DNA from: Bacteroidales bacterium
Lineage (GTDB): Bacteria > Bacteroidota > Bacteroidia > Bacteroidales > JAGONC01
Direction: 5' to 3'
Length of the DNA: 38,154 nt
Assembly (NCBI GenBank): GCA_028716265.1
Contig: JAQUQD010000023.1
Coordinates: 1 to 38,154 of the forward strand
The notes beneath the pieces were generated by a model. The model was not told where the DNA came from. It saw nothing but the letters and a program-made list of their open reading frames with translations, and made no database searches. Position numbers and translations under genes: made by a program. Shown piece by piece: positions 3,286 to 31,194 of this stretch. Every line of letters begins with the position of its first letter. Positions within the stretch are counted from its first letter, which is position 1.

Positions 3286-3312
3286 CGTGTTGTTATTTCG
3301 TAATATATTGAT

Positions 3313-6171: not shown

Positions 6172-6172
6172 A

Positions 6173-8098: not shown

Positions 8099-8155
8099 GT
8101 TCGTTATGAATGTACCCCTAAGGCTGTGTCAAAATGCATGATTTTTTATTAAACA

Positions 8156-8226
8156 ACGGAGATCACTGAGGAATGCGAATAACACAGAGGGATGATAACG
8201 AGTCATTTAAACTTCGTGATCTCCGT
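8156..8226. repeat. Intergenic imperfect palindrome (CTCCGTG-type repeat)
   Basis: In the 287-bp gap between the surface lipoprotein and the GH-A gene, ACGGAGATCAC (8156-8166) is matched exactly by its inverse GTGATCTCCGT (8216-8226). It is followed by more CTCCGTG-like words up to about 8250. It looks like a dispersed intergenic repeat rather than a gene. I see no coding sequence or clear promoter in 8099-8300. Confidence 0.5.
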
Positions 8227-8306
8227 GAATCCTCCGTGCACTCCGAGGTTAAATTGTATTTTTTATGCACCCTCTGGGTAAAATGGGTAAAATTCCCCAA
8301 ATGAAT

Positions 8307-8353
8307 AAAAAAAAGCCTGGTCCGATGCTCCGTTGCCTTTGCATGAACCAGGC
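8307..8353 (-). terminator. Rho-independent-like terminator after the susC-susD-lipoprotein unit
   Basis: Reading the minus strand after the lipoprotein stop, GCCTGGT (complement of 8347-8353) pairs with ACCAGGC (complement of 8315-8321) over a long, partly structured loop, and is followed at once by eight T. It would end or attenuate transcription before the glycosidase genes, giving more SusC/D than enzyme. Confidence 0.65.
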
Positions 8354-8385
8354 AGCCAACCAGTCAACCTAAAACTGAGTCGTCA

Positions 8386-9435
8386 TTATTCTTTAATAAA
8401 TACAATGTTGTCGAAATAGACCGTATGACCTTCCTCGTACATCTGGAATGTAATGTTGTTCACTGCAGTCTTGTCGATGGTCGGATAGTCGATGAGCAGA
8501 TCGTACTTGTAATAGGTCCAGACGTTGGCCGGTATGACCACATCCACTTTCTGATCCTGCCAGTTGATCCAGAACTGCATTTTCTTTTCCACATCGGCTC
8601 CCTTGATCCAGAAGGTGAAGTAGCGGTATTCGGTCACATTGATAGATCCACCGTTTCCGAGCTGCAGTCCTCCCCAGGTTCCTGCGGGGTCATATGCAGC
8701 TTTCATGGAGCTGGTTCCGGTCACCACGTAATCGGATGAAGGCTCGAATGTACCGCCCCACGACCAGCTCTCAAAACCGTTCATCAGCGCGTCCGTGAAG
8801 ACGGGCAAGGCTTTGTCGATATTAATGAAGATCAGGTCGGTGGTCCTGTCCCCGGCAGGGCTGGTCAGTACCAGCCTGCATTTGGTCAGTTCAGTGGAGG
8901 GCATTTTGATGACCGCGGTATTCAGGGAGGAGGACACGATCTGTGCTTCGTCTGTACTGCCTTCGAGAACCACCTTTGAACAGACGTCAAGGTTGTTGCC
9001 GCTGAGTGTAATGGTGCTTCCTGACTGAAAATCGGTCGGGAAGGCGCTGTTCACGATGGAGTAGGCCAGCACGTCAAATGGCACGGTCAGCGTCTTGCCG
9101 TCCACATTGGTAAGGATGATGTTTTGCTGACCGCGGAAGGCTGTATCGGGAACGCGGAACAGGATGCTGGTTTCGGTGTTCAGGTTCGGGTTGATGACAG
9201 CCGATGCGTTATTCAGGTCGAAGACAATGCTCACCATCTGACCAAGACCCTGGCCCCTGAGGGTTAGCATCGTTGTGGTCGGACCTGCCGTTGGGGCTAT
9301 GGATTCAAAGACCGGCGTCCCGGCAGGGACATCGGGGCTTCCGTCCGTATCCTTTTTGCAACCGCTGAAGATCCACACCGTGCTGAGCATGATGAGGAGC
9401 AGTGCTGAAATTGTGGTTACAGATATCTTTTTCAT
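8386..9435 (-). CDS. Surface glycan-binding lipoprotein with IPT/TIG domains (SusE/F position)
   Basis: 349 residues. A lipoprotein signal ends at Ser-Gly-Cys26. Two IPT/TIG-like immunoglobulin folds follow (about 45-125 and 130-205; for example the pattern PTAGPTTTMLTLRGQGLG), then a C-terminal beta-sandwich of about 140 residues rich in Trp and Tyr (ESWSWGGTFEPSSDYVVTG, TFWIKGADVEKKMQFWINW) that looks like a carbohydrate-binding module. It starts 18 bp after susD and is followed by a terminator. In such loci the gene after susD usually encodes a surface glycan-binding protein that captures polysaccharide for the SusCD complex. The role is inferred from position and architecture; the ligand is unknown. 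Confidence 0.8.
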   Translation of the reverse strand: MKKISVTTISALLLIMLSTVWIFSGCKKDTDGSPDVPAGTPVFESIAPTAGPTTTMLTLRGQGLGQMVSIVFDLNNASAVINPNLNTETSILFRVPDTAFRGQQNIILTNVDGKTLTVPFDVLAYSIVNSAFPTDFQSGSTITLSGNNLDVCSKVVLEGSTDEAQIVSSSLNTAVIKMPSTELTKCRLVLTSPAGDRTTDLIFINIDKALPVFTDALMNGFESWSWGGTFEPSSDYVVTGTSSMKAAYDPAGTWGGLQLGNGGSINVTEYRYFTFWIKGADVEKKMQFWINWQDQKVDVVIPANVWTYYKYDLLIDYPTIDKTAVNNITFQMYEEGHTVYFDNIVFIKE

Positions 9436-9453
9436 AGGGTATGCGTTTTAAGA

Positions 9454-11034
9454 TTATTGATAGTAAGGTACCGGTGGGCCAGCCAGGGCTGGATCCTGGG
9501 TGATTTCGCTGGCAGGAATGGGCAGATACATGTATTGCTCAGTGAAGGTAACGTAAACCGGTGTACCCATTTGCCCTCTGTTCTGTGCCTCGATGATCTG
9601 TTTGGCTTTGGCAAATCCCTGACGCTGGATGTCGTACCAGTAGTCTCCTTCGAATGCAAATTCAACGCGGCGTTCCTGAAGGATGTCCTCTTTGGTGATG
9701 GAGGCTTTGGGCTGCAGGCCGGCGCGCAGGCGGACCCTGTTGAAGGTGTTCAGTGCCTGTGCGTCACTGGTGGAAGCATTATTTCCCAGGATCGCTTCGG
9801 CGTAGATCAGCAGGACGTCTGCGTACCGCTGGACCATGAAGTTCTGACCGGTATTCATGCCGATTACTTCTTCCCCACCATATTTGGCACCTGGTCCCAC
9901 GACATATTTGGCTATATTGGACCGCGTACCGTTGAACTGACCTCCTTTACCGGCAGGCTGCGCCGTATCGTAGACATACCCGTTGGCCATGAATGCATTG
10001 TAATCCGCATCGCCGCCCTGGGGCTTCCAGGCAGGCATCGACCAGCCATGTTCCATGATGGTGGCAGGTCTGCGGATGTCTCCCGGTTCGAAAGCATCTT
10101 TGAAGTCCAGTGAAGGAAGGAAAAGCTCCCACATATTGGAAACATCGGTTTGCAGGTTGCTCGGACCCCGGTCGCATTGCAGCTGATTGCCCGTTCCCCA
10201 TGGATTCTGCGCGAGCTGATGCTGGATGGCGAAGATCGATTCGATATTGTTGTTCCATGCGCTGGAGTTGAACATCGACTGGTAATCTTCCTTGGAGACT
10301 AGGTCATAGTAACCGGAGGTGATCACTTCCTGTGCCTTGGTGGCAGCGTTTGTGTAATCCTGAAGGTAAAGGTACAGTTTTGCCATCATGGCCTTGGCGG
10401 CCCAGGTGGTTAATCTTCCGGAGACATCGCTCGTGGGAAGGCCCGCTTCGGCGAGTTTCAGCTCCTCCAGGGCATACCTGAAAACATCTGCCTTCAGGTA
10501 ACGGGGGATGTCGTAGTCTCCTGACAGGGCAATGGCACCCGGATCATCCACGATGGGGACGTCGCCCCATACGCGGGCCAGATAGAAATAGACCACGCCC
10601 CTCATGTAATGGCACTCGGCAATGGCAGGATCCAGGAAGGAAGCATCGCCACCCAGACTTTTCTTCATTTCGAAGGCCTGAAGCAGCGAACCTGACCATC
10701 CCGCCACCTTGTAGAAGGATTTCCAGCTGTCCGCTACCAGAGCGTTTGTTGATGACAGGGTAAAGTTGACAAACGCGGCATAATCCCCGTTGGAGGGATA
10801 GCTGAAGGCATTGCCTGCCATCACATCGCCAATGTCGTCCATGGCGCGGCTAAGGAAACCATGCCATGGCAGGCCGCTGTACAAAGTACTGGTTCCGGCC
10901 CGTACCTCATCAGCCGTGTTATAGTAGTTGTCGACCGTCGTGCTGTCGAGGGATTCACGTTCGGTAAACTCTTTCTGGCACGCCCCCAGTGTGATAAGAG
11001 CTAGGGCCAGCGTATATGAGATTATTCTTTTCAT
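9454..11034 (-). CDS. susD: SusD/RagB-family outer-membrane lipoprotein
   Basis: 526 residues. The lipoprotein signal ends at LGAC19. The body shows the alpha-helical TPR-like SusD fold: the conserved early segment YYNTADEVRAGTSTLYSG, the region ECHYMRGVVYFYLARVWGDVPIV, and a C-terminal part with LNTFNRVRLRAGL and QERRVEFAFEGDYWYDIQRQG. It caps the SusC channel on the outside of the cell and binds the incoming glycan. The gene lies 34 bp downstream of susC and 18 bp upstream of the glycan-binding lipoprotein, the standard order. The symbol denotes the family, not starch specificity. Confidence 0.96.
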   Translation of the reverse strand: MKRIISYTLALALITLGACQKEFTERESLDSTTVDNYYNTADEVRAGTSTLYSGLPWHGFLSRAMDDIGDVMAGNAFSYPSNGDYAAFVNFTLSSTNALVADSWKSFYKVAGWSGSLLQAFEMKKSLGGDASFLDPAIAECHYMRGVVYFYLARVWGDVPIVDDPGAIALSGDYDIPRYLKADVFRYALEELKLAEAGLPTSDVSGRLTTWAAKAMMAKLYLYLQDYTNAATKAQEVITSGYYDLVSKEDYQSMFNSSAWNNNIESIFAIQHQLAQNPWGTGNQLQCDRGPSNLQTDVSNMWELFLPSLDFKDAFEPGDIRRPATIMEHGWSMPAWKPQGGDADYNAFMANGYVYDTAQPAGKGGQFNGTRSNIAKYVVGPGAKYGGEEVIGMNTGQNFMVQRYADVLLIYAEAILGNNASTSDAQALNTFNRVRLRAGLQPKASITKEDILQERRVEFAFEGDYWYDIQRQGFAKAKQIIEAQNRGQMGTPVYVTFTEQYMYLPIPASEITQDPALAGPPVPYYQ

Positions 11035-11068
11035 TGTTTTAGGATTTTAGAGTGAGTGATCCGTTTCT

Positions 11069-14000
11069 TTAGAATTTAACATTGACACCGAATGTATAAA
11101 CGCGTGGGTTGGGAAAGTGCCCCTGGTCCACGTTCATGAGCAGGATCGTGTTGTTGAACGCTCCGATCTCCGGATCATATCCTGAATAGCCGGTAAAGGT
11201 GTACAGGTTTTGTCCTGAAAAATACAACCTCAGGTTGGTCATTTTAATATGTTCTATCCATTTCTTCGGCAGGCGGTAGCCGATGGTTAGGTTCTGGATG
11301 CGCAGGTAGGAACCGTCTTCCACATACCTTGTCGAAACATAGGTATTGTTCGAGTTGGTGGTGGTGAACCTGGGCAGGCTTCCATTCGTGTTGGTCTCAG
11401 TATACCTGTCCGAAACTGTTTCAAGCTGGTTGTAATAAGTGTTGTCCATCTTTTCCAGCTGCCATTTCAGGAAGTTGTAGACATCGGCTCCGTAACTTCC
11501 CTGCAGGAACAGGGATACATCAAAATTATAGAAGCTGAAGTTGTTGGTGAAGCCGAAGGTGAATTCAGGGATCGGGCTTCCGATATAGGTCATGTCTGCC
11601 TCATCGATCTTTCCGTCCGGTTTACCGGTCCGGTTTCCCTCTTCGTCTTTGCCATCGATATCCTTGAACCGTACGTCGCCCAGCCAGGTATGTGTTTCAT
11701 CAACGGGAAAACCAAACTGAGGCAATGCATTGTCAAGATCTTCCTGGGTGCGGTATATGCCATCGTAAATAAGCCCGTAGAAGGAGCCAACCGGATGACC
11801 GGGGGCTGTCAGGGTGAGCGTATACTGGTCATAGTACACTTTTCCCGCCAGGGTAGAAGCTTCATTCAGCAACTTATCCAGTTTATTGTTGTAACGGGAG
11901 AAAATAAGGGAAGCGGTCCAGTTAAAATTTTCTTTCATGAAGATATAGCCATTCAGGTTGAGGTCGATCCCCTTGTTGGTCATCTGGCCCACATTTCCGA
12001 TGGGCGCCTTCAGGTCATCCCAGTTCGAGCCAATACCGAGGAAAGTTGGGCCCGTAGTGAACAGCAGCATGTTGGAGGTGGTCTTCTTGTAAATGTCGAT
12101 GGACGCCTCCAGCCTGCTTTTGAAGAAGCCGAGGTCGACACCCAGGTTGGTGGTGATCACTTCTTCCCATCCCAGGTCGGGATTGGCGATCCCGTTGATA
12201 AAATTGGTGACGGACGTACCGATGGTCCCGAAGCCAACAGGCCCCGGCCAGAACATCACGCCCGATGAATAGGGAGGATTCTGTGCCCCGCTGGGCAGAT
12301 TCTGGTTGCCTACTCCGCCATAACCAAACCGGATCTTCATGTAATTCATGACATTTTCAAAGGAGGCGGCGAACTTCTCGTTGGTGACCGTCCAGCCTAC
12401 GGATACTCCGGGGAAGTAACCCCATTTGTTGTCGGGGTGGAAATTGGAGGATCCGTCAGCCCTGAAACTGACCGACAGGGAGTAGCGGTCGTCAAAGGCG
12501 TAGTTGGCCCTGATAAAATAGGATTCCATTGCCCAGTTGTTCTTGCCTCCGCTCAGCTCCCAGGAGGATTGGGTGGTGCTGCCAACGTTCAGGTCGATGA
12601 TGTTGTTCTGCAGATCGAGTTTTTTACCCGTGATCTGTTCCCAGTACGAATATTGTGCTTCGTGACCTGCAGTCGCACCGATAAAATGCCTGTTGAGTTT
12701 CTTGGTATAGTTCAGGTAGTTCCTTAAAGCCCAGTAGTAGGAGTTCTGGCGGTTGTCATACAGCTGGCTCTGCTGGATACGGGTGCCGATATCTGCGGCG
12801 AGCTGATAGGCCGTGTTATTCTGAAGATTCAGGCTGTAAGACACCTCATTCTTAAATGAAAAATCTTTCAGGAATTTGAAGTCAGCATATAGGTTTCCAA
12901 ATGCCTGTTCTCTCATGACGGTATTTCCGCGGGTTTCAGCCTGGGCGACAGGATTGTCTTGGTAGTACTGCACCCCGCCGATGATATCGCCTCCACCCCA
13001 GCTGTCGTCAATTTCTTTCACCGGGATCAGTGGGCTTTGGATCGCTGACAGCCAGATGGTGCCGGAGGGCGCGTTATCGGTAAGGGCTACGTTCTGGTCG
13101 CTTCTGAGCACGTTGGCACTCATGCCGATATCCAGCCACTTTTTGATCTGGTGGTCAATGTTGAACCGGCCCGAATACCTCTTGAAGTTCGAACCGATCA
13201 CGGTACCTTCCTGGTTCAGGTAGCTAGCGGATATATAGTACGAGGTTTTTTCTTTGGCTCCTGAGAAACTGATCGCATGGTTCTGGGTCAGGGCGTTCTG
13301 GAAGATGGCCTCCTGCCAGTCAGTTCCCGGACCGAGGAGCGAAGGATCCTTGAATTCCTCCGCAGGTTCCAGTCCTACCAGGGGCATGACTTCGTTCTGA
13401 TACGTCGCAAACTGGGGCAGATCCATCAGGTCCAGTCTTGTTGGAATTTGTCCGACACCAATCGATCCGTCGTAGGTCACCTTGCCGTCAACAGATTTGC
13501 CTTTTTTCGTTGTGACCATGATGACCCCGTTGGCGGCCTGTGAGCCATAGATGGCCTGTGCGGAAGCATCTTTCAATACATCGATGGATTCGATGTCGTT
13601 CGGACTGATGCTTGCCAGAAAGCTGTTGCCAATCTGGCCGTTGCCACCTCCCATCTTGTCGTACCCGAAGCTGTTTACCGTGTTCGTAGTGAATGGAACA
13701 CCGTCAATAACGATCAGGGGATCATTGCTGTTGATGGACGTCAGCCCCCTGACACGCAGGGCAACACCGCCACCGGGCTGACCGCTGTTGTAAGTGACCG
13801 TCACGCCCGACAGCTTCCCCTGCAGACCCTGGTCCACCCCGGTGATCTGTAGATCCTTGAGTTCTGTCGTTTTTACAGAGGAGATGGCCGATGTGACCTC
13901 ACTCCTTCGTACAGTCCCGTACCCGATCACCACCACTTCACTCAGGGAAGTCAGCGCCGATTTCATGGTGATCTCCATAGGCCCGGCAGATATGGGCACC

Positions 14001-23099: not shown

Positions 23100-23135
23100 G
23101 ACCCCATCCCCTGTCCCCCATAGCCGTCAAGCTAA
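23100..23135 (+). repeat. Left terminal inverted repeat of the IS relic
   Basis: Starts GACCCCATCCCC and ends CCGTCAAGCTAA. Its inverse at 23686-23721 differs at five positions (8, 13, 14, 15 and 32). Confidence 0.8.
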
Positions 23136-23245
23136 TGTGTTAATATTGATTATCAACAAGATGATGTTTAAAATAAATGTGTCGGGAATCTTGAACTAAG
23201 TGATGACTTCAATAAGATCGCTGAATCGACCAAAATTTAGCACTT

Positions 23246-23668
23246 ATGAAGCAATCAAGTAGTTCAATTGTAGCGAAAGTAACACATTTTTTAATACAAT
23301 CCTTCGGCAAAAACGATATGGAAGAACTTGCAAGGAATACGTGTTTTGTAAGGAAACGGAGCAGAATAACCGGGTTTGTTTTTACCATGGCAATGATTTT
23401 TGAATTGCGGCAGCCCCGGATAGCCAGTCTGAATGAATTGAGCACAAAACTTTTTACCTATTACAGGACCATGTTGTGGAATCGCTTAAAGCTTGTAATA
23501 AGTGATTTAAAATCAACGAAATACCTCCTGACTATGCTTGGTCAGATACGGATATTTGCAATAGCACGAGCCACTAAGAAAATGAACAAATTGCTATTAG
23601 ATACCTACGAAATCCTGGTAAGAAAATGCAAAAAAGAAAGAAAAAAGGACACCAAACCCCTATGGTGA
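23246..23668 (+). pseudogene. Shortened IS4-like transposase (N- and C-terminal parts joined)
   Basis: 140 residues. The first 60 (KVTHFLIQSFGKNDMEELAR, RKRSRITGFVFTMAMIF, SLNELSTKL) resemble the N-terminus of IS4-group transposases. The last 70 (MLWNRLKLVISDLKS ... LLLDTYEILVRKCKKERKKD) resemble the C-terminal helical end of such proteins. The central RNase H-like DDE domain is missing, so an in-frame internal deletion is the simplest explanation. The protein would be inactive as a transposase; it could at most bind ends. Family assignment is from memory of the pattern and is moderately sure. Confidence 0.6.
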
Positions 23669-23685
23669 TTATGAGTCATCTGTCC

Positions 23686-23721
23686 TTAGATTGACGGCTA
23701 TGGGGGCTGGGGGGTGGGGTC
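23686..23721 (-). repeat. Right terminal inverted repeat of the IS relic
   Basis: Inverse of the 23100-23135 repeat; reads TTAGATTGACGGCTATGGGG on the plus strand at its start and ends GGTGGGGTC. Confidence 0.8.
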
Positions 23722-23940: not shown

Positions 23941-23966
23941 AAAAAGCCCTGGCAACAGGGCTTTTT
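23941..23966. terminator. Strong terminator, originally that of tRNA-Phe
   Basis: Perfect 11-bp stem AAAAAGCCCTG / CAGGGCTTTTT with a GCAA loop, symmetric and so bidirectional. It lies only three bases outside the left attachment repeat. In the minus direction, removing the inserted element would put it directly behind the tRNA-Phe gene now at 31122-31194. It probably ended that transcript before insertion. Confidence 0.85.
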
Positions 23967-23969
23967 ATC

Positions 23970-23984
23970 GTGGTACCACCCGGA
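23970..23984. repeat. attL: copy of tRNA-Phe 3' end
   Basis: GTGGTACCACCCGGA, identical to 31121-31135. It corresponds to the last 14 bases of the tRNA plus one base beyond it. Confidence 0.9.
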
Positions 23985-24022
23985 TTATGAACCTTTTACA
24001 TAAGTGGCTTTATATCAGTGGC

Positions 24023-24562
24023 TTATTCAGTCGGTTTTTGATCTCTGGTTAACCCCTGGTCAACAGTATCACCTTTTCCTTCAAGCCATTTATTCCAAAT
24101 GCCAATTAAAGTACTATCTCTGATTAAATCCCTTTCAAAAAGTGTGTAAATCCCAGGAACATGAGCAAAAAGTTTAAATAAAACATCCTTATCCAACTCG
24201 AGTAAAATATACTCAATTTGTATAATAAGCATTCTGTTATCTATATTCCTGTATTCCAAGTCTTTATTTACTTGGGTTAACTCTTTAATTTGTTCTTCTA
24301 AGGACCTGATCTTATAGACAAATATCTTTTCATTATCTGGTATTGCCGTTATCTGATGACCGGCTAAAATATCAGATTCAACCAGAGCATACAAGGGTAC
24401 ATCCAAGGCTTTTGCAAACTCTATTAAAGTTGATATTTTATAATCATTTCTTTTCAACATCCTGTGAATAGAGGGTTCTGGTATTTTGGTTTTATCTGAT
24501 AAATACTTAACAGTTAGCTTTTTTTCCTTTAGTATGCTTCTGATATTCAGTCGTATATTCAT
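24023..24562 (-). CDS. XRE-type HTH repressor with coiled coil
   Basis: 179 residues. An N-terminal helix-turn-helix of the XRE/Cro type (about 3-62: SILKEKKLTVKYLSDKTKIP, EPSIHRMLKRNDYKISTLIEFAKALDVPL) is followed by a Glu/Lys/Leu-rich coiled-coil stretch (about 80-110, KIRSLEEQIKELTQVNKDLE) and a helical C-terminus probably used for oligomerisation. It is transcribed away from the excisionase-like gene, with a dyad in the space between, the usual layout of a lysogeny-type control region. It probably keeps the element quiet. No peptidase (LexA/CI-type) domain is seen, so derepression by self-cleavage is not indicated. Confidence 0.82.
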   Translation of the reverse strand: MNIRLNIRSILKEKKLTVKYLSDKTKIPEPSIHRMLKRNDYKISTLIEFAKALDVPLYALVESDILAGHQITAIPDNEKIFVYKIRSLEEQIKELTQVNKDLEYRNIDNRMLIIQIEYILLELDKDVLFKLFAHVPGIYTLFERDLIRDSTLIGIWNKWLEGKGDTVDQGLTRDQKPTE

Positions 24563-24576
24563 ATATAACAGATAAA

Positions 24577-24610
24577 TGTTAATAAAAAAGTATTAACAAA
24601 AAGGTTAACA
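24577..24610. promoter_or_regulatory. Candidate operator between repressor and excisionase-like gene
   Basis: Perfect 8-bp inverted repeat TGTTAATA (24577-24584) / TATTAACA (24591-24598) with a 6-base spacer, followed by a third related half-site GTTAACA (24604-24610). It begins 15 bases upstream of the repressor start and overlaps the -33 region of the rightward promoter. Confidence 0.6.
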
Positions 24611-24623
24611 ATAATAAAAACGT

Positions 24624-24631
24624 TATCTTTG
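24624..24631 (+). promoter_or_regulatory. Rightward promoter -7 element
   Basis: TATCTTTG, a full TAnnTTTG match, 64 bases before the ATG of the excisionase-like gene; the candidate operator half-site GTTAACA lies at the -33 distance. Confidence 0.6.
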
Positions 24632-24695
24632 TGTCGTTGAATATCTTTATATGTCTTCACAAAAGTAACGTTTAAATCTTCAAATATTAACGATT

Positions 24696-24944
24696 ATGGG
24701 AGAAATTATACTTACTACTAAAAGCGAACTTGCTGATACTCTGGAACAAGTTCTCAGAAAGTACGATAAAGAAAAGGCAGATAAGCAGCCTACTAAAACC
24801 TACACAGTTAACCAGATAGCTAAAGCCCTGGGAAAAGCTCACTCAACTATTAAGCGTTTGATCCGTGCCGGTGTGATCAAAACAACCCGGGACGGACTGA
24901 TCCCTGAATGGGCCTTAAACGAATATCTGAATAAAAACATTTAA
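24696..24944 (+). CDS. Excisionase/AlpA-like HTH protein
   Basis: 82 residues. The C-terminal half is a winged-HTH of the excisionase/MerR-like kind: YTVNQIAKALGKAHSTIKRLIRAGVIKTTRDGLIPEWALNEYL, where the pattern T-V-x-Q-I-A ... S-T-I-K-R-L-I ... G-V-I is diagnostic. The N-terminal 30 residues are charged and helical. As first gene of the rightward operon, opposite a repressor, it probably directs excision with the integrase at the far end or activates the replication genes. A terminator-like hairpin follows at 24984. Confidence 0.8.
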   Translation: MGEIILTTKSELADTLEQVLRKYDKEKADKQPTKTYTVNQIAKALGKAHSTIKRLIRAGVIKTTRDGLIPEWALNEYLNKNI

Positions 24945-24960
24945 TGCCAGGCATTGAGTG

Positions 24961-24978
24961 AGGGCCGGCACCCCTAAA
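24961..24978 (+). repeat. Short repeat shared with the integrase end of the element (copy 1)
   Basis: AGGGCCGGCACCCCTAAA; the same 18-base word with one mismatch occurs at 31034-31051, and both are preceded by CATTGA at a distance of three or five bases. Confidence 0.6.
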
Positions 24979-24983
24979 AAGAA

Positions 24984-25008
24984 GGGAGCCAGTATCCATC
25001 TGGCCCCC
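24984..25008 (+). terminator. Terminator-like hairpin after the excisionase-like gene
   Basis: GGGAGCCAG / CTGGCCCCC stem with one mismatch and a 7-base loop, followed by TTCAATTT. It may be an attenuator separating the excisionase-like gene from the replication genes. Confidence 0.5.
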
Positions 25009-25061
25009 TTCAATTTAAAATCTTGGTTCATTGAAACTCTAAACCCTTAAAACCTTTAAAT

Positions 25062-25373
25062 ATGGATGCAAATATATTACAAAAAATCCAAATTTCACAC
25101 GGTATAAGTATTTTATTTTCATGCGCTTTATCCGGTGACATCATCCAACAAGAGTCTGACCAAAATTTTAAGGCACTTTCAGCGGTATCAGATTTTCAAA
25201 CGGAACTTTCAGAAGAGATACGATCTGCCATCCTGGATGTAATGGACGACAGAATGAAGCTATTCCAGGAATTAGAGAAATGGATCGATGATCCTGAAAA
25301 GCTTAAGCCAGGCCCAGGGAACAAACATTTTTTGGCAAATATTGGTAACAGAATAGTTCGGGATCTCCAATGA
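25062..25373 (+). CDS. Hypothetical protein of the integrative element
   Basis: 103 residues, no recognised domain. Mostly helical and acidic (SDFQTELSEEIRSAILDVMDDRMKLF...) with no signal or membrane segment. It precedes another small gene and the helicase gene in the same direction. A role in replication control or in the element's biology is possible from position only. Confidence 0.65.
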   Translation: MDANILQKIQISHGISILFSCALSGDIIQQESDQNFKALSAVSDFQTELSEEIRSAILDVMDDRMKLFQELEKWIDDPEKLKPGPGNKHFLANIGNRIVRDLQ

Positions 25374-25413
25374 AAGATGATATGGCCACATTTTAAAAGA
25401 AGGCCATCTTTTT
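25373..25413 (+). terminator. Imperfect hairpin between two small genes
   Basis: AAAGAT-(bulge)-GGCC at 25373-25387 pairs with GGCCATCTTTTT at 25402-25413, which ends in a T run. A weak terminator or attenuator is possible. Confidence 0.35.
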
Positions 25414-25423
25414 AATTTATGTT

Positions 25424-25720
25424 ATGGATGAACAAGATGTAAACCTTTCGAATAGATATAATCAGATCATTCAACATTTTATATCCATGGACGGCAAAAC
25501 ATTCCTGGATACAAAAAGAATTGACCAGTTAAAAGCTGGTTTACGATCAGATCCGCGAAATCCTATATTTTTTGCTTTACTCATTGAAGTGGATAAAATG
25601 GAAGCCTATATTGCTCAACTTGAATGGGATAATGCTCAACTTTTTTATGAATATTCTAAACTACAGGAGGATATTCAACAGAATGAACGCATTATTAAAG
25701 TACTAATGAAACACTTTTAA
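25424..25720 (+). CDS. Hypothetical helical protein upstream of the helicase
   Basis: 98 residues, no recognised domain. Strongly helical, with a C-terminal stretch suited to a coiled coil (EVDKMEAYIAQLEWDNAQLF, YSKLQEDIQQNERIIKVL). Its stop is one base from the helicase ATG, so the two are cotranscribed and probably translationally coupled. It could be a helicase loader or partner; this is a guess from position and size. Confidence 0.7.
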   Translation: MDEQDVNLSNRYNQIIQHFISMDGKTFLDTKRIDQLKAGLRSDPRNPIFFALLIEVDKMEAYIAQLEWDNAQLFYEYSKLQEDIQQNERIIKVLMKHF

Positions 25721-25721
25721 T

Positions 25722-26996
25722 ATGAAAGATCCTAAAAATGATAATTCAAACAATCAGTATATCCGTGTAGGTGATGATTATTTTAAGCTTATAACGTACA
25801 CCGACAAGAATAAAAATATCATACCTAATCAATTAGCATTTCGGAAACGACAAACCATTTTAGATGATTTTAACATGGATTTTTTAAAAACAATTCCTAG
25901 ATACGATTCATTCGTAAACGTACCATATAATAAAGGAGAAGTACCAATTTTCCCCACTAATTATAATTTATATTTCCCTTTTCAATATAAGCCAATGAAA
26001 GGATCCTGGACTTGGAGCGAACATTTTATTAAACATATTTTCGGAGAACAATATGAATTGGGATTAGATTATATCCAACTATTATATGAACAACCAACCC
26101 AAATGCTACCCATCCTTTGTCTTGTAAGCAAGGAAAATGAAACAGGGAAAACAACATTTGTCGATTGGTTAGTTCATTTATTTTATGGTAATGCTGTTAT
26201 AATTGGAAGTCAAGATGTTCATGGAGATTTCAATGATCATTTTATATCAAAACTCATTATTGCTGTTGATGAATCAAAAATCGATAAACAAACCTCACTT
26301 GAAAAAATCAAACATTGGTCGACCCAGCAACAGGCATTTTTCCATGCAAAATGGCAGGGAAAAAGGACCATTGATTTTATTGGGAAAATTATTCTTTTAT
26401 CGAATTACGAAGACAATTTTATCACTGCCAGAGATGAGGATATACGCTATTGGATTAGAAAACTACAGAAGCCAAAGGAGTATAATTTTAAAATCATTGA
26501 CGATTTAAAAAACGAGATTCCTGCATTTATACATTTTCTGGATCATCGAACTCTTTCAACTAAACAGGAATCCAGGATGTGGTTTCATCCGAAAGACCTT
26601 GAAACAAAAGCTTTAGAGGTAGTACGTGAATCATCAAAAAGCTGGTTATACAAGGACCTTTTTGAATATTTCAAAGAGCATTTCAGTGAAAATGAAAACT
26701 TGATAAGCTTTAAGGCATCACCCACCGATATTAAAAGTAAATGGTTTGAAAGGAACTCAAACGTGCAGGTAAGTTACATCAGAAAAATATTGAAGGATGA
26801 GTTTAATTTACAACCTTCGGAAAAAGATGAACGTTATGTTCCTTTCGGAGTAAACTTGTCCCCGAGTAAAGTCGGCACTCCATTCACTATCGAAAAATCA
26901 TTTTTCAACAATACGAAAGAGATAGTTAATACCAATGTAAACGAATCTAACCTATTAATGGACAATGTATTAGTTGAAAACAATTTACCATTTTAA
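25722..26996 (+). CDS. SF3/D5-like replicative helicase (VapE/primase-helicase group)
   Basis: 424 residues. The ATPase core has a Walker A, SKENETGKTTF (Lys143), a Walker B-like LIIAVDES (Asp183-Glu184) and a downstream IILLSNYEDNF sensor-like segment, as in helicases of phages, satellites and small plasmids. The N-terminal 100 residues are too short for a primase and show no catalytic primase motif, so it probably relies on a host primase. The C-terminal 150 residues are likely DNA binding. Directly downstream lies a repeat-rich candidate origin, the usual place for such a protein's target. It implies the element replicates after excision. Confidence 0.85.
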   Translation: MKDPKNDNSNNQYIRVGDDYFKLITYTDKNKNIIPNQLAFRKRQTILDDFNMDFLKTIPRYDSFVNVPYNKGEVPIFPTNYNLYFPFQYKPMKGSWTWSEHFIKHIFGEQYELGLDYIQLLYEQPTQMLPILCLVSKENETGKTTFVDWLVHLFYGNAVIIGSQDVHGDFNDHFISKLIIAVDESKIDKQTSLEKIKHWSTQQQAFFHAKWQGKRTIDFIGKIILLSNYEDNFITARDEDIRYWIRKLQKPKEYNFKIIDDLKNEIPAFIHFLDHRTLSTKQESRMWFHPKDLETKALEVVRESSKSWLYKDLFEYFKEHFSENENLISFKASPTDIKSKWFERNSNVQVSYIRKILKDEFNLQPSEKDERYVPFGVNLSPSKVGTPFTIEKSFFNNTKEIVNTNVNESNLLMDNVLVENNLPF

Positions 26997-27199
26997 ATGT
27001 GTTGAAAATATGTTGAAAACAGGGTGTTGAATAAAAAAAATCCATGTGTGCGCGTGCGCGTGCGCATGTATATTATATTATATTATATATAAAATAATAA
27101 ACAAAAACAGTAAATAATAGAATATCAATAAATTACAGCGTTGAAAAATTGTTGAAAAGGCGTTGTAAATCAGTCGAAAGTAGAAATAATCAACAAACC
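26997..27199. other. Candidate replication origin: phased repeats, alternating G/C tract, AT-rich tract
   Basis: GTTGAAAA-type repeats lie at 27001, 27012 and 27026 (last one GTTGAATA), and again at 27140, 27151, 27162 (GTTGTAAA) and 27173 (GTCGAAAG), mostly at exact 11-base steps; a further GTTGAAAA is at 26973 inside the helicase gene. Between the groups is alternating purine-pyrimidine sequence (about 27046-27068, TGTGCGCGTGCGCGTGCGCA-like) followed by about 50 bases of almost pure A/T (27069-27120). Iterons flanking an unwinding region next to a replication gene are the classic origin layout. Function is inferred. Confidence 0.6.
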
Positions 27200-27436
27200 A
27201 TGAAAGCACAATTGATCATTTCAAATGCCCGGTTATTTTCCAGGAAGGTAAAGGATATAAACCTAAAGGGCCTGACCGGTACGGATCATCATAACGGGAT
27301 CCTCGGCAACGTTTGTTTTACCGGGAACCTGTCGATCCGTACCCGGGCGGGGGGCTGGAAAGACATCACCGGTGAACACGGTTCCCGGGACTATGAAAGC
27401 GAATATGGTTTTATCTTGGAATGCAATGATCACTAA
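27200..27436 (+). CDS. Small hypothetical protein, ends in the tandem repeats
   Basis: 78 residues from the ATG at 27200 (MKAQLIISNARLF). An earlier in-frame start at 27149 would run through the phased repeats and is less likely. The sequence is basic to neutral with a repeated Gly-rich pattern (GLTGTDHHNGILGNVCFTG, RTRAGGWKDITGEHG) and no known domain. Its stop codon lies inside the first 48-bp repeat. GC content is higher than in the helicase gene before it. Confidence 0.6.
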   Translation: MKAQLIISNARLFSRKVKDINLKGLTGTDHHNGILGNVCFTGNLSIRTRAGGWKDITGEHGSRDYESEYGFILECNDH

Positions 27437-27681
27437 TTCCAGCCTGTCGTTTACAGAATTAGTCAGCGCTATAGTGATCACTAATTCCAGCCTGTCGTTT
27501 ACAGAATTAGTTGGCGTTATAGTGATCACTAATTCCAGCCTGTCGTTTACAGAATTAGTCAGCGCTATAGTGATCACTAATTCCAGCCTGTCGTTTACAG
27601 AATTAGTCAGCGCTATAGTGATCACTAATTCCAGCCTGTCGTTTACAGAATTAGTCAGCGCTATAGTGATCACTAATTCCA
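27426..27681. repeat. Five tandem 48-bp repeats plus a partial sixth, each with two dyads
   Basis: Units start at 27426, 27474, 27522, 27570 and 27618, with a 16-base partial unit from 27666. Each contains the palindrome GTGATCAC (the first copy starts AT instead of GT), a hairpin ACTAATTC / GAATTAGT with a 16-base loop, and AGCGCT. Unit 2 differs by three transitions near its end; the others are otherwise identical. Because 48 is divisible by three, two frames stay open across it, but no start or composition supports coding. The array lies directly before the promoter and gene of an RHH DNA-binding protein. Confidence 0.9.
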
Positions 27682-27716
27682 ACCGTATGAATGACAGACG
27701 TTTACAAAAAGTGTCC

Positions 27717-27747
27717 TTTGGTTTGCATTTTCCCGGGATTATGTTTG
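27717..27747 (+). promoter_or_regulatory. Promoter of the RHH gene
   Basis: TTTG (27717-27720) and TATGTTTG (27740-27747) are separated by 19 bases, a full match to the Bacteroidota -33/-7 pair. The start codon is at 27760, so the leader would be under ten bases. Confidence 0.65.
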
Positions 27748-27759
27748 CACAAAAAAGCC

Positions 27760-27927
27760 ATGAGAGTACGCAAAAAAAATCCCTTAAATCATACCCTGGC
27801 GTTCCGTGTAAGCGAATCGGACTACCAATCAATAGAGAAGGAAGCTGCAGCCAGTGGAATCAAAAAAAGCGAACTGATCAGAGAACTTTTAAAAATTTCA
27901 ATAAATGGAAGCAATGATCAAAATTAA
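27760..27927 (+). CDS. Ribbon-helix-helix DNA-binding protein
   Basis: 55 residues from the ATG at 27760 (MRVRKKNPLNHTLAFRVSES). The sequence has the Arc/CopG/MobC-like pattern: a basic beta strand HTLAFRVSE, helix DYQSIEKEAAASG and helix KKSELIRELLKIS. Such dimers bind direct or inverted repeats and serve as autorepressors, centromere-binding proteins or relaxosome accessories. No relaxase gene exists nearby, but a tandem-repeat array does, immediately upstream. A start further upstream in frame is possible but would lie ahead of the promoter. It overlaps the next gene by 23 bases. Confidence 0.75.
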   Translation: MRVRKKNPLNHTLAFRVSESDYQSIEKEAAASGIKKSELIRELLKISINGSNDQN

Positions 27928-28150
27928 GCCTTCAGAGCTCGTAAAGCTTCAGGAAGCGATCAGACTATCCAACCAGTTAAAACGTTGCTCCCTGGAGCTC
28001 CTGGAAGTCCAGGGAAGTGATATCCGGATCTTATATCAGGATCCCCGTGAACTTTTTATCCTGGGCCGGATCTTTCAGCCCTTAAAACTACCCCTGCAGG
28101 CCGGCAGTATTCAGATTGAACTGGACAATTCATTTATTCAAACCATTTAA
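27905..28150 (+). CDS. Small hypothetical protein coupled to the RHH gene
   Basis: 81 residues (72 if the ATG at 27914 is used). No recognised domain: a helical N-terminus (SELVKLQEAIRLSNQLKRCS) followed by alternating hydrophobic segments (SDIRILYQDPRELFILGRIF). It overlaps the end of the RHH gene and precedes the ATP-grasp gene by 12 bases, so all three are probably one operon. It could be a partner or a substrate of the ligase; there is no direct evidence for either. Confidence 0.65.
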   Translation: MEAMIKIKPSELVKLQEAIRLSNQLKRCSLELLEVQGSDIRILYQDPRELFILGRIFQPLKLPLQAGSIQIELDNSFIQTI

Positions 28151-28162
28151 AAAACAAACATT

Positions 28163-29437
28163 ATGAGCTTAACAGAAGAGGAACTCCGAGTAGCCAGGAG
28201 TGAAGCAGAAAACGAAAGAAGGAAACGGCATATTTATTTAATAGCGGTAGAAGAAGAACGTCGCTTACGCCTTGAAAAGCAAAAAGAGGAAAAGGAAAAG
28301 GGGAAAAAATGTCTGAATATTACGATCCTTTCAGCAGCCCCGGGAAGTGAGGCCACGCAAAGTATTATCAAAGCAGGGGAAAAGAGAGGCCATAAAATGA
28401 CCGTTCTGGATCCGGCGAAACTTTACCTTTATATTTCGGACAAAGAAAACGGTTATGACCGGATCTATGATGGCTCGACCGGAACGGATAAACCGGAACG
28501 GATCAAAGCGAAAGAGATTGACGCGGTCATATCCAGGATAGGGGCTAACCTGGAATACGGTGCAACCGTCCTGGAGCACTTTAACCGGAACCTGAATATC
28601 TTTTGTACTCAAAGCGCAAACGGTATAAAGACGGCTTCTAACAAGCTTATAAGCCTGCAGCGTTTGAGCCAGGCGGGGATCCGCACACCTCAAACAGTTA
28701 TCGGCAACAATATCATACATTGCTCCTGGTTGATCGATAAGATCGGCGGTCTGCCAGCTATAGCCAAAACGCTGCAGGGATCCCAGGGAATAGGGGTTGT
28801 GCCCTTGAAGGATCCGGAACAGACTAACGCAATGTTGCAGAGCTTCCACAAATCAAAGGTCAATCTACTCCTACAACAGTACATTGAAGCGGGGGCAAGG
28901 GATATACGGGTAATTGTAATTGATTCAAAGGTGATCGCTGCAATGGAACGTACTGCAGTAAAAGGATCCCTGAGGGCGAACATATCCCAGGGGGGATCCG
29001 GGCGAAAGATCGAGCTTTCCCAGGATGACCAAGATATTTGTATTAATGCAGCCAGGGCTGTAGGCCTGGCCGGTGCCTGTGGGGTGGATCTGATCAAAGA
29101 CAAGGATGGATCCAGTTATATCATTGAGGTAAATTCAAACTATGGGTATCACGTCGAAACAATCACCGGCGTTGATATATCGACACCCTTAATCCAGTAT
29201 GTTGAACACAATTGGAAGCGGGGCGGGTTGGCTACTGAAGGGATCGCTTCTGCAATGACGGATCCGATGATTGATTATTTTTTGTCGCTGTCGATGATGG
29301 CCGGGATCCGGGTTGCAGAGAACCTGGAAAGGGAAGAACTCAATGAGTTGAAAAATTCCATTTTGAGCTCAATTGAATCTTATAATATCGATCCTGAAAC
29401 CTTTGAAAAGGATCTGAGGGAATGTTATTTTCAATAG
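28163..29437 (+). CDS. RimK-like ATP-grasp peptide ligase
   Basis: 424 residues. A charged coiled-coil-like N-terminal extension (about 1-48, rich in Glu, Arg and Lys) precedes a RimK-type domain (about 50-350). RimK hallmarks: the nucleotide loop AKTLQGSQGIGVV (Lys202), DIRVIVI (247-253), LRANISQGG (270-278, Arg271 and Asn273), GVDLI with Asp309, and the Mg site IIEVNSNYG (Glu322, Asn324), where most relatives have N-x-x-PG; here Tyr replaces Pro. A further 75-residue helical C-terminus is extra compared with E. coli RimK (about 300 residues). The family adds glutamate or other amino acids to a protein or peptide carboxyl end. Its presence as cargo of an integrative element is unusual; the substrate is unknown. 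Confidence 0.88.
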   Translation: MSLTEEELRVARSEAENERRKRHIYLIAVEEERRLRLEKQKEEKEKGKKCLNITILSAAPGSEATQSIIKAGEKRGHKMTVLDPAKLYLYISDKENGYDRIYDGSTGTDKPERIKAKEIDAVISRIGANLEYGATVLEHFNRNLNIFCTQSANGIKTASNKLISLQRLSQAGIRTPQTVIGNNIIHCSWLIDKIGGLPAIAKTLQGSQGIGVVPLKDPEQTNAMLQSFHKSKVNLLLQQYIEAGARDIRVIVIDSKVIAAMERTAVKGSLRANISQGGSGRKIELSQDDQDICINAARAVGLAGACGVDLIKDKDGSSYIIEVNSNYGYHVETITGVDISTPLIQYVEHNWKRGGLATEGIASAMTDPMIDYFLSLSMMAGIRVAENLEREELNELKNSILSSIESYNIDPETFEKDLRECYFQ

Positions 29438-29611
29438 TAAACAATCAGAAAATCAGTAAATTATCCCATATCACTGTATTTTCCTCATATTTGTAATTCA
29501 ATGCCTCTTCCCAGCGTGACCGGTTAAGAACCTTACACCTGAACCAGTGATAAAATAAGAATTCATTGTAAAATGATGAAATTGTGAATGATAATATTTT
29601 CAAAATAGGAT

Positions 29612-29636
29612 AAAAAGGTCATTTATTGACCTTTTT
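29612..29636. terminator. Bidirectional terminator between the ligase and integrase genes
   Basis: AAAAAGGTCA / TGACCTTTTT, a perfect 10-bp stem with a 5-base loop, followed by further T. It lies between convergent genes. The rest of 29438-29718 shows no gene. Confidence 0.8.
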
Positions 29637-29718
29637 TGATCATTTATTGATTGTCTTAGATCGACCCAAAAAGCCCCGCAAAATCTTACGGAATTAAGCT
29701 ATACCGACGTTTTTCAGA

Positions 29719-30963
29719 TCAATTTGATGAAATATTGTTCAATAAACCTGAAAAATCGGACTTTTCACAACTGTTTGTAACCACCACTTTCGAAAATCCC
29801 TCTTCCGGATCCCTTTCAAGCTTTTTCAATTCTTTGATCTTTAATTTATCCGGGTATTTCGTGTAAACCTGGGTAACTTTCAAGCTACTGTGTCCTAAAA
29901 TATTGCTGATAACATCTATCGGAACGCCCAGTTCAATGCAATGAGTTGCAAAAGTGTGACGGCTGCAGTGGAATGAAATGATCTTATTGATCCCTGCTAT
30001 TTTCATTATCTCTTTTAAATGTCGGTTTGTAGGCTGGTTTGATATAACCCTGAACACCTTCAAACCCTCACAAACCGGATCCGGTTTAATCAATTCCAGG
30101 GCCTGTTTGATCAGTGGGATCCTTACAAAACGTTTACTTTTGTGCATCACCACATTTAAAAACGGTTCATTGGATCCCAGGCCTTCAATATTGGAGTATT
30201 TCAAGTCCTTTACATCCCGGTATCTTATGCCGGTATAACAGGAAAAAAGAAAGTATTGTAATACAATCTCGTATTTTCTTTTCAGGGATCCGGCCCGGTA
30301 AAGCCTTACCAGGATTTGTAATTCAGGACCGGTTAAAAACTCTCTCTTGCTTTCAATTCCGCCGGTGATCCGAAACTTCTTGTAAGTGGTGGACTTCAAT
30401 AAATTCCTTTCAACAGCCAGGTTCAACAGCACCCGTATAACCTTTAGCGACTTTACAACCGTGTTGGGATTATTCTTTTTCGTACCCCTTAAAAACCGTT
30501 CATATTGCTGAAAAAAGGTATCTGATATTTCATTGAATGATAATTGCAGACGGTATGTCTTCAGCTTATTCACCTGGGATTTATAACATTTGATCGTATC
30601 CGGTGAAAGTTTACCCTTCAATAATTCAATCTCATTATCTGCAAACTGATAAAAGGAAGTTGTATTGTACTCATGTAAGTACCTTTTATCAAACTCCTCA
30701 AAGGTCAAAGGGGTATCATTTATTTTAAGGCCTGTTAGTATATCATTGGCCCGGTTAACCTGCTTTTCAATAAGCATATTTTTTGATCGGTAACAAGGAT
30801 CTGATTTTTTAACGGTGATACCGTTTAAATCTTCTGGTCTAACATTGATGTTCAAAGAATAAAACCGGGCCTTATGGCCTAATATTATTCTCATGCGAAT
30901 AGCGCATGTTCCATCCTTACGGATGACATCATTTCTGGGAATGATTTTAACTGAAGTTTTCAT
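29719..30963 (-). CDS. int: Tyrosine recombinase (integrase)
   Basis: 414 residues in the layout common to Bacteroidota element integrases: an N-terminal arm-binding part (about 1-95), a SAM-like core-binding domain (about 100-195) and a catalytic domain (about 205-390). The catalytic set is visible: Arg247 (YTGIRYRDV), Lys275, His332 and Arg335 (FHCSRHTFATH), His358 (LGHSS) and the nucleophile Tyr367 (KVTQVYTKY). The gene lies about 160 bp from the tRNA-Phe attachment site and is transcribed inward. It should catalyse insertion into, and with the HTH protein excision from, the tRNA 3' end. Confidence 0.95.
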   Translation of the reverse strand: MKTSVKIIPRNDVIRKDGTCAIRMRIILGHKARFYSLNINVRPEDLNGITVKKSDPCYRSKNMLIEKQVNRANDILTGLKINDTPLTFEEFDKRYLHEYNTTSFYQFADNEIELLKGKLSPDTIKCYKSQVNKLKTYRLQLSFNEISDTFFQQYERFLRGTKKNNPNTVVKSLKVIRVLLNLAVERNLLKSTTYKKFRITGGIESKREFLTGPELQILVRLYRAGSLKRKYEIVLQYFLFSCYTGIRYRDVKDLKYSNIEGLGSNEPFLNVVMHKSKRFVRIPLIKQALELIKPDPVCEGLKVFRVISNQPTNRHLKEIMKIAGINKIISFHCSRHTFATHCIELGVPIDVISNILGHSSLKVTQVYTKYPDKLKIKELKKLERDPEEGFSKVVVTNSCEKSDFSGLLNNISSN

Positions 30964-30964
30964 T

Positions 30965-31019
30965 TTGGCAAGTGTTTAAAAGTGAATTTCTGGATAACCA
31001 CTGGATAACACTTATGCCA
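30965..31019. promoter_or_regulatory. Repeat-rich control or recombination region upstream of the integrase gene
   Basis: Two direct repeats CTGGATAAC (30990-30998 and 31001-31009) sit 11 bases apart inside a larger imperfect inverted repeat (TTGGCAAGTGTT at 30966-30977 against AACACTTATGCCAA at 31007-31020). They could be integrase arm sites or an operator for the int promoter. Confidence 0.45.
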
Positions 31020-31033
31020 AAACATTGAAGAAA

Positions 31034-31051
31034 AGGGCCGGCACCCTTAAA
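31034..31051 (+). repeat. Short repeat shared with 24961-24978 (copy 2)
   Basis: AGGGCCGGCACCCTTAAA, one mismatch from the copy behind the excisionase-like gene; it lies about 70 bases from the attachment site. Confidence 0.6.
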
Positions 31052-31120
31052 CAATCGAAATTTTAAAGAACTGAAAGTTAAATGTTTACAATTTTTGTTT
31101 TCAATCTTTAAACGTTCTCA

Positions 31121-31135
31121 GTGGTACCACCCGGA
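31121..31135. repeat. attR: 15-bp repeat in the tRNA-Phe 3' end
   Basis: GTGGTACCACCCGGA, identical to 23970-23984. The tRNA remains complete because the element restores its 3' end. Confidence 0.9.
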
Positions 31136-31194
31136 ATCGAACCAGGGACTCACGGATTTTCAGTCCGTTGCTCTACCTGCTGAGCTATGGTACC
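31122..31194 (-). tRNA. tRNA-Phe (anticodon GAA)
   Basis: 73 bases on the minus strand fold fully: acceptor GGTACCA / TGGTACC with discriminator A, D stem GCTC / GAGC, anticodon stem ACGGA / TCCGT with loop CTGAAAA (anticodon GAA), and T arm CCTGG-TTCGATT-CCGGG with one G-U pair. CCA is not encoded. The integrative element abuts its 3' end. Confidence 0.97.

Follow-up and report, generated by a model that had tools for sequence, protein, structure and literature searches.

Phage-inducible chromosomal islands (PICIs) of the SaPI type share a recurrent gene order, in which a divergent repressor and xis pair precedes rep and then the origin, interference genes come after these, and int lies beside the repressor across attP (PMC6092414). 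PICIs are further defined by packaging through terS or cos/pac, by att sites that prophages never occupy, and by induction, packaging and interference that depend on a phage. A leaner plan is described for the phage-inducible chromosomal minimalist islands (PICMIs) of Vibrionaceae, whose model has four mandatory gene classes (an integrase of PF00589, an AlpA-type regulator of PF12728 or PF05930, PF19263 or PF13148, and a Fis gene), and which indicate that a satellite may be without capsid-remodelling genes (PMC10803314). In the accessible literature on phage satellites and PICIs in Bacteroidota or Bacteroides, we found no such element described. From a Bacteroidales bacterium we report a 7.2-kb island that follows much of this plan, has a tRNA-Phe gene as its insertion site and carries a RimK-family ATP-grasp ligase. 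It lies in a 38,154-nucleotide stretch (GenBank assembly GCA_028716265.1, contig JAQUQD010000023.1), hereafter the window. The ligase belongs to a single clade with a mostly mobile setting, and this mobile lineage is the new part: we could not find it in print, and the accessible literature linking RimK with mobile elements did not describe a mobile RimK. A phage-satellite-type parasite is our leading reading of the island, one that we regard as plausible and hold at slightly below an even chance.

An island at a tRNA-Phe gene

The element spans positions 23970-31120 of the window (7,151 bp; 7,166 bp with both repeats). These borders follow from a perfect 15-bp direct repeat, GTGGTACCACCCGGA, which is the 3' end of tRNA-Phe, and from empty sites with a single copy of it in two congeneric species. 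In both congeners (G003, locus L180; G002, locus L181) the site is uninterrupted and runs from the left flank through one copy of the 15-mer and tRNA-Phe into the right flank, with identical residues in 206 of 240 and 212 of 261 alignment columns, respectively. The aligned left flank measures 104 bp in G003 and 122 bp in G002 and includes a terminator-like hairpin, which in the two congeners lies directly 3' of tRNA-Phe. The 3' end of the tRNA gene is restored when the element inserts. G+C content is 0.31-0.47 within the element, 0.40-0.44 immediately to its left and ~0.5 farther out, and the element is single-copy in its own 3.09-Mb genome. The features at the borders are as follows.

23941-23966, minus strand: terminator-like hairpin of tRNA-Phe, outside the element and now at its far side (congener comparison)
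23970-23984: attL, 15-bp copy of the tRNA-Phe 3' end (perfect repeat; empty site in two congeners)
31121-31135: attR, second copy of these 15 bp, which at present forms the 3' end of the intact tRNA-Phe (perfect repeat; empty site in two congeners)
31121-31194, minus strand: tRNA-Phe (gaa), the target gene (ARAGORN; Rfam 71.8 bits)

Only the last ~100 bp of the window's left flank were found next to tRNA-Phe in the congeners. Farther to the left, at 23100-23721, a 622-bp block has 59-nt imperfect inverted repeats (73%) flanking a 140-aa open reading frame (ORF) without a Pfam match, and looks like a deleted insertion sequence.

Nine ORFs of the island were scanned against Pfam, PHROGs and NCBIfam. 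The genes, with a further possible ORF, are the following.

24023-24562, minus strand: divergent Cro/C1-type repressor (HTH_26; Pfam 28.7 bits, cut-off 22)
24696-24944, plus strand: HTH_17 excisionase/AlpA-type regulator (Pfam PF12728, 33.3 bits, cut-off 27)
25062-25373, plus strand: 103-aa ORF, no family above chance in the three databases
25424-25720, plus strand: 98-aa ORF, likewise no family above chance in the three
25722-26996, plus strand: PF19263 (DUF5906) helicase resembling superfamily 3 (SF3), predicted replication initiator (Pfam 49.2 bits, cut-off 27.6)
27200-27436, plus strand: possible 78-aa ORF that ends inside the first unit of a 48-bp repeat array, no Pfam family
27760-27927, plus strand: ribbon-helix-helix (RHH) protein, start possibly at 27691 (NikA-like, 29.7 bits, cut-off 27)
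27905-28150, plus strand: orphan 81-aa ORF with a single other homolog
28163-29437, plus strand: RimK-family ATP-grasp ligase (TIGR00768, 193.6 bits, cut-off 143.4; Pfam RimK ATP-grasp, 137.5 bits, cut-off 21)
29719-30963, minus strand: tyrosine integrase (Pfam PF00589, 61.0 bits, cut-off 27.1; SAM_5; Arm-DNA-bind_5)

The minus strand thus holds the repressor and, at the far end, the integrase, while the plus strand reads HTH_17 gene, two unassigned ORFs, helicase, a 0.7-kb gap, RHH gene, 81-aa ORF and ligase; on the excised circle, the integrase would adjoin the repressor in the same direction. With these scores, the repeats and the empty sites, the integrase, regulators and SF3-type helicase that the first-pass annotation had placed at a tRNA site are borne out, as is its statement that the element has neither a relaxase nor structural phage genes: no relaxase, coupling-protein, capsid, portal or tail family was matched in the nine ORFs. 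The small cargo block that it had proposed is also present; it consists of the RHH gene, the orphan ORF and the ligase, and it had been overlooked that the last of these is the recurrent and distinguishing gene.

Compared with PICIs, the island has the same divergent repressor and xis-type gene (24023-24562 and 24696-24944), the same adjacency of int and repressor across attP on the circle, a rep gene directly followed by a predicted origin in which an AT-rich core is flanked by two sets of iterons, and the same absence of structural and lytic genes. It differs in its size (7.2 kb against ~15 kb), in that no terS or capsid genes were found, in a helicase without a primase, in its Bacteroidales host, and in the RimK-type ligase that occupies the interference position. 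Three of the four mandatory PICMI classes (PF00589, PF12728 and PF19263) are present above their Pfam cut-offs, and capsid-remodelling genes are lacking in both; unlike PICMIs, the island has no Fis family among its matches, sits at tRNA-Phe rather than fis, and carries the ligase.

Several minor matches in these genes were considered. The HTH_17 protein, which has 43-48% identical counterparts in L146, L151 and L178, scores 26.5 bits against TIGR01764 (excise), under the cut-off of 28.8. Its weak match to phrog_57 'terminase small subunit' (E 7e-5) is confined to the helix-turn-helix (HTH), and this identification was rejected; terS was not found by Pfam or PHROGs in the nine ORFs. The helicase profile A2 matches PDB 6k9c/6k9e 'Primase' with 47 bits; no primase domain was found in the helicase and no primase gene among the nine ORFs. 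The RHH protein, below the RHH_1 cut-off (20.0 against 20.5 bits), has the sole mobilization-named match among the nine, the NikA-like one, and its domain is too generic to be taken as proof of a relaxosome. A reading as defence genes was also rejected, as PADLOC gave no match at E 0.01 for the ligase or the helicase, and the HTH_17 protein matches mad1 by its HTH. The one other homolog of the 81-aa ORF (85%) is on a 3524-bp contig; the RimK relative P0002 (79%) is likewise on 3524 bp.

A clade of mobile RimK-type ligases

A ligase profile made from 31 homologs, the window's own included, was run on genome contigs; 361 of 453 pattern matches encode relatives. The 80 best of these were retained; identity is 42-65% for the first ten and 31-38% for the remaining 70. 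We compared 20 relatives (L004-L013, L146-L154, L158) with 73 controls (L014-L083, L155-L157), the labels 'mobile' and 'chromosomal' having been assigned by rank and context. L155-L157 were called chromosomal by their neighbours, one of which we take to be a RimB-like protease. In a maximum-likelihood tree of 93 rows, the window's ligase and 19 relatives (L013 was too short and was omitted) lie on one side of a 100/100 branch, apart from all 73 controls; some branches inside the clade are long, and its inner placements are therefore unsure. An integrase is present in the stretch around 12 of the 20 relatives and around 1 of the 73 control RimKs, for which it should be kept in mind that the integrase profile was built from these elements and may miss foreign integrases. 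None of the eight controls that belong to Bacteroidota by title or kinship (L024, L061, L062, L067, L075, L155-L157) has one. Among the eight relatives without an integrase, two are circular contigs, and the others are on short contigs or have their RimK near a contig end.

The two circular contigs, L006 (3,923 bp, 124-bp terminal overlap) and L152 (3,848 bp, 89-bp overlap), are Rep_1 plasmids bearing a RimK of the mobile clade; the filing of L006 under Falkowbacteria is taken as a binning error. They favor an account in which the island is an integrative plasmid-like replicon whose ligase serves maintenance, for example by modifying its own RHH or replication proteins, and whose transfer is by chance. 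Small RHH-like proteins beside RimK in L004 (E 0.001), the window and L006 (by eye) point the same way. However, no common C-terminal tail is seen in these RHH proteins, and the integrases near 12 of the 20 relatives argue against it, such that we consider this account quite improbable.

As a precedent in print, PMC12324425 was considered and set aside, since RimK, ATP-grasp, glutamate ligase, primase and helicase are all absent from its accessible text. A RimK-like ligase on a virus is known from cyanophage, as the 'ribosomal protein S6 glutaminyl transferase' of phrog_2599; among the rows listed, its members share at most 35% identity with the island ligase, over 54% of the query.

Fold and residues of the ligase

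The predicted model of the ligase (mean predicted local distance difference test score, pLDDT, 88.9) superposes on RimK 7qyr over 303 columns with a root-mean-square deviation of 1.8 and a template modeling (TM) score of 0.93 by target length. It has the ATP-grasp fold of the RimK S6:glutamate ligase (PDB 7qyr, 5zct, 4iwx; PMC10092738) together with most catalytic residues, E178 excepted. Residues are numbered here as in Pseudomonas aeruginosa RimK (PMC10092738), with a Marinobacter row as ruler, and were tallied in 51 clade rows (31 profile rows, 19 loci and the window, so that some proteins occur twice). R64, K141, R189, N213, D248, E260 and N262 are kept in 96-100% of the rows and S7 in 72%, whereas R8 is replaced mostly by A (58%), S14 by A (68%), S68 by N (72%) and H215 by S (98%); at E178, in the ADP site, Q occurs in 43% and E in 17%. 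Further differences from the S6 ligase are a long N-terminal helix (residues 5-46), a helical C-terminal tail, and a three-residue insert at window residues 97-99 (G-Y-D; G-Y/F/H-D in the clade), whose G and D are present in all clade rows and which is a gap in all controls.

In P. aeruginosa RimK, the poly-glutamate chain is contacted by S7, R8, S14, R64, S68, R189 and N262 (PMC10092738). Three of these contacts are lost in the clade (R8, S14, S68), while R64, R189 and N262 are kept. The core looks fit for ATP use and carboxylate binding; the side that has changed is that of the acceptor. Because the ATP, metal and carboxylate residues are mostly kept and three poly-glutamate contacts are lost, the reaction is likely an ATP-dependent ligation of amino acids to an acceptor other than the S6 tail. 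The C-terminal tail of the host's own S6 (L275) reads KTEENAEA.

The ligase recurs beside different replication modules

The replication partner of the clade ligases varies. It is PF19263 in the window, L008, L010 and L012, VapE in L011, AAA_25 in L007, L151 and, by clustering, L147 (with a Toprim-type primase in L147 and L151), DnaB in L153 (Pfam) and in L150 and L154 (clustering), and Rep_1 in L006 and L152; L146 has a 589-aa primase-like protein with Toprim, and L158 a DUF3987 with DUF6371. L008, from the cultivable Dyadobacter koreensis DSM 19938, encodes an integrase, a helicase, a primase and RimK next to tRNA-Arg, and no borders were found for it. Six elements, the window's among them, have exact or near-exact attachment (att) pairs, and in all six the ligase comes after the replication genes. 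The att pairs of the other five, with element sizes counting both repeats, are given below.

L158: 45 bp; element of 7,741 bp
L010: 18 bp; element of 7,601 bp
L153: 21 bp; element of 8,962 bp (299-9260)
L154: 16 bp; element of 12,308 bp (806-13113), at tRNA-Leu
L011: 26 and 32 bp, broken by mismatches; element of 16,140 bp

In seven of the 12 tRNA-bearing RimK loci, no att pair was found within the stretch examined. L151 lies at tRNA-Phe, and its neighbour gene types are, by eye, the same as in the window. The repeat of L153 looks like the 3' end of a tmRNA; ARAGORN detected no gene at that place. Upstream of the helicase, L010 (5394-6509) and L012 (1501-2625) encode proteins that are alike by eye, both having hydrophobic stretches and, at the C-terminus, a cysteine/histidine motif; no Pfam family is above cut-off in either.

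Phage genes are present in two of the bounded relatives. In L153 a terminase small subunit (Terminase_4, 56.7 bits; phrog_83, 80.8 bits) accompanies the integrase, DnaB, RimK and a second recombinase, and L154 has a tail tape measure gene (phrog_27166, 212.5 bits) between DnaB and RimK. Among the five ORFs of each that were searched against PHROGs, no other morphogenesis protein was found, and ten further unassigned proteins from seven other RimK loci matched no packaging family.

The island might also be what is left, decayed and likely immobile, of a mobilizable element after the loss of its relaxase and primase, which would agree with the missing primase gene, the single copy and the fact that no excised form was seen. 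Its nine uninterrupted ORFs, perfect att repeats, reconstituted tRNA and absence from two congeners speak against decay, as does the fact that bounded relatives of 7.6-9 kb in which there is no relaxase recur; we regard a remnant as very improbable.

A predicted origin 3' of the helicase

Directly 3' of the helicase stop codon there are five iterons with a GTTGAA core, in two sets around an AT-rich stretch. The features of this region are as follows.

26997-27170: predicted origin, GTTGAA-core iterons flanking an AT-rich stretch (from sequence only)
27001, 27012, 27026 and 27140, 27151: iterons of the two sets, which span 27001-27031 and 27140-27156
27066-27135: AT-rich stretch of 70 bp, G+C 0.09
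27427-27681: 48-bp repeat array, 5.3 copies, 97%, each unit with a 12-bp palindrome and a hairpin

PICI origins have the same place, after rep, and the same structure (PMC6092414). We compared the commonest 7-mer in the 300 bp downstream of the helicase gene, upstream of it and in the gene body with shuffles, in 24 loci of the helicase (that of the window, those of three relatives with RimK, and 20 chosen by hand from 31 non-own matches). Enrichment downstream was found in 20 of 24 loci at p<=0.05 and in 16 at p<=0.01 (not in L165, L174, L175 or L178), as against none of 24 upstream and none in the gene body (p<=0.05); near-copies judged by helicase length and layout (L162/L163, L168/L169, L170/L177) bring the effective sample below 24. 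For the window, p was 0.02 in this test, and a second value was 0.013. On viral contigs, PF19263 loci (L195-L274) had 3' repeats in 54 of 72 cases and gene-body repeats in 3 of 72 (p<=0.05, 100 shuffles), the 72 being those of the 80 loci kept in which the gene is plus-strand and has >=250 bp of sequence downstream. The repeated word varies per element (TGTTGAA, TGGAACA, AAAGTAG, GGTAACA, TGATGAA and others), which would be expected if every helicase recognizes an origin of its own. The predicted origin at 26997-27170 is thus well supported by comparison across loci, and the 3' repeat rule helps to infer the origins of PF19263 replicons from sequence.

The first-pass annotation had proposed a candidate origin next to the helicase. 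An origin-like region is indeed there; the likely site is the iterons, and not the conspicuous 48-bp array, which we rejected as the main origin because the short iterons occupy the place common to relatives. The array is open in frame on both strands, and it has no further match in its own genome and no exact match in viral contigs.

Relatives of the helicase with relaxases

The island is without the own relaxase of relaxase-type integrative and mobilizable elements. Its helicase family, however, is common to mobilizable elements that carry MobV/PF03432-type relaxases in the same order (L162-L176), most of which have the same 3' repeats and an integrase of the same cluster as the island's. 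With two in-house profiles, relaxases were detected in 10 of the 20 fetched helicase loci without RimK and in none of the 21 RimK loci (Fisher p 1.6e-4), although some may have been missed because there are short contigs among the RimK loci. Five of the ten relaxases were put to Pfam: four are Mob_Pre or Relaxase (MobV/PF03432-type), and L164 matched nothing. Those RimK relatives that carry a Toprim primase have the ligase after it, in the place of the relaxase.

A relaxase-less mobilizable island of the iOriT type, which would borrow relaxase and pilus from a resident conjugative element and use the RHH protein and the 48-bp array as accessory relaxosome and oriT, is an alternative that we consider possible but rather unlikely. 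The relaxases that accompany the same helicase family in half of the loci without RimK agree with it, as does an RHH protein above the NikA-like cut-off, and iOriT elements are known (PMC11389934). By contrast, the two in-house profiles detect no relaxase in the RimK-clade loci (several of them short contigs), two relatives bear phage morphogenesis genes, RHH domains are generic, and no oriT was identified.

Discussion

If the island is a satellite, the repressor would control excision, the helicase may act as initiator at the iterons together with a host primase, a helper phage would package the DNA, which would require a cos or pac signal on the element, and the ligase may be the effector. 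The last role is suggested because the ligase is placed after rep and the origin like PICI interference genes, and because it recurs whatever the replication module. The satellite reading draws its plausibility from plan and kinship: a PICI-like arrangement of divergent regulators, xis-type gene, rep and predicted origin with iterons; three of the four PICMI gene classes; integrases near most clade ligases and hardly any controls; no relaxase detected in the RimK loci, as against half of the helicase loci without RimK; and the terminase small subunit and tape measure genes of two att-bounded relatives.

Several observations weigh against it. First, the resemblance to phage-inducible islands that the first-pass annotation had stressed holds for gene order but does not by itself show a satellite, since elements with a relaxase have the PF19263 module too and the RHH protein scores above the cut-off of a mobilization protein. 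Second, neither terS nor a cos or pac site was identified in the island, and L153 and L154, with DnaB-type replication, belong to a different branch of the clade, so that their phage genes need not speak for the window's copy. Third, the circular junction was not found in viral contigs, and the ligase is in none of the 80 viral helicase loci kept. Matches to the ligase in phage, plasmid and viral collections are distant only, with 17 loci in viral contigs (best identity 35%) and 29 phage records, all <60% identical and the 20 listed <36%. Fourth, the clade is patchy, as few genomes pass: 15 of 393 of the same order (own included) at E 1e-70, and at E 1e-75 its own genome only among 395 across the phylum. 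Finally, no terminase large subunit was found at E<=1e-8 in 10 of 11 genomes, including its own and those of L153 (G076) and L154 (G270); an 18.5-bit terminase-like match in its own genome (L276) fails this threshold and was rejected. No resident helper is therefore seen, which would also be the case with a virulent helper, as it would leave none.

We speculate further that one deep RimK-type ligase lineage is the signature effector of Bacteroidota-wide satellite-type elements, comprising tRNA islands with different replicons, a TerS-bearing island and tiny plasmids. By adding amino acids to the C-terminal end of a protein of phage or host, this ligase would divert phage production or translation to the advantage of the element. 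In this full form the proposal is unlikely; if true, satellites would for the first time include a class whose defining gene is a ligase that tags proteins. If the satellite reading itself is true, it would give access to a class of such elements that is little known in Bacteroidota. It would provide a searchable family, through the ligase profile, the helicase with its usual 3' repeats and the small bounded elements, one of them with a terminase small subunit, and would make it testable whether proteins of the host or the phage are modified by satellites through the addition of amino-acid tags.

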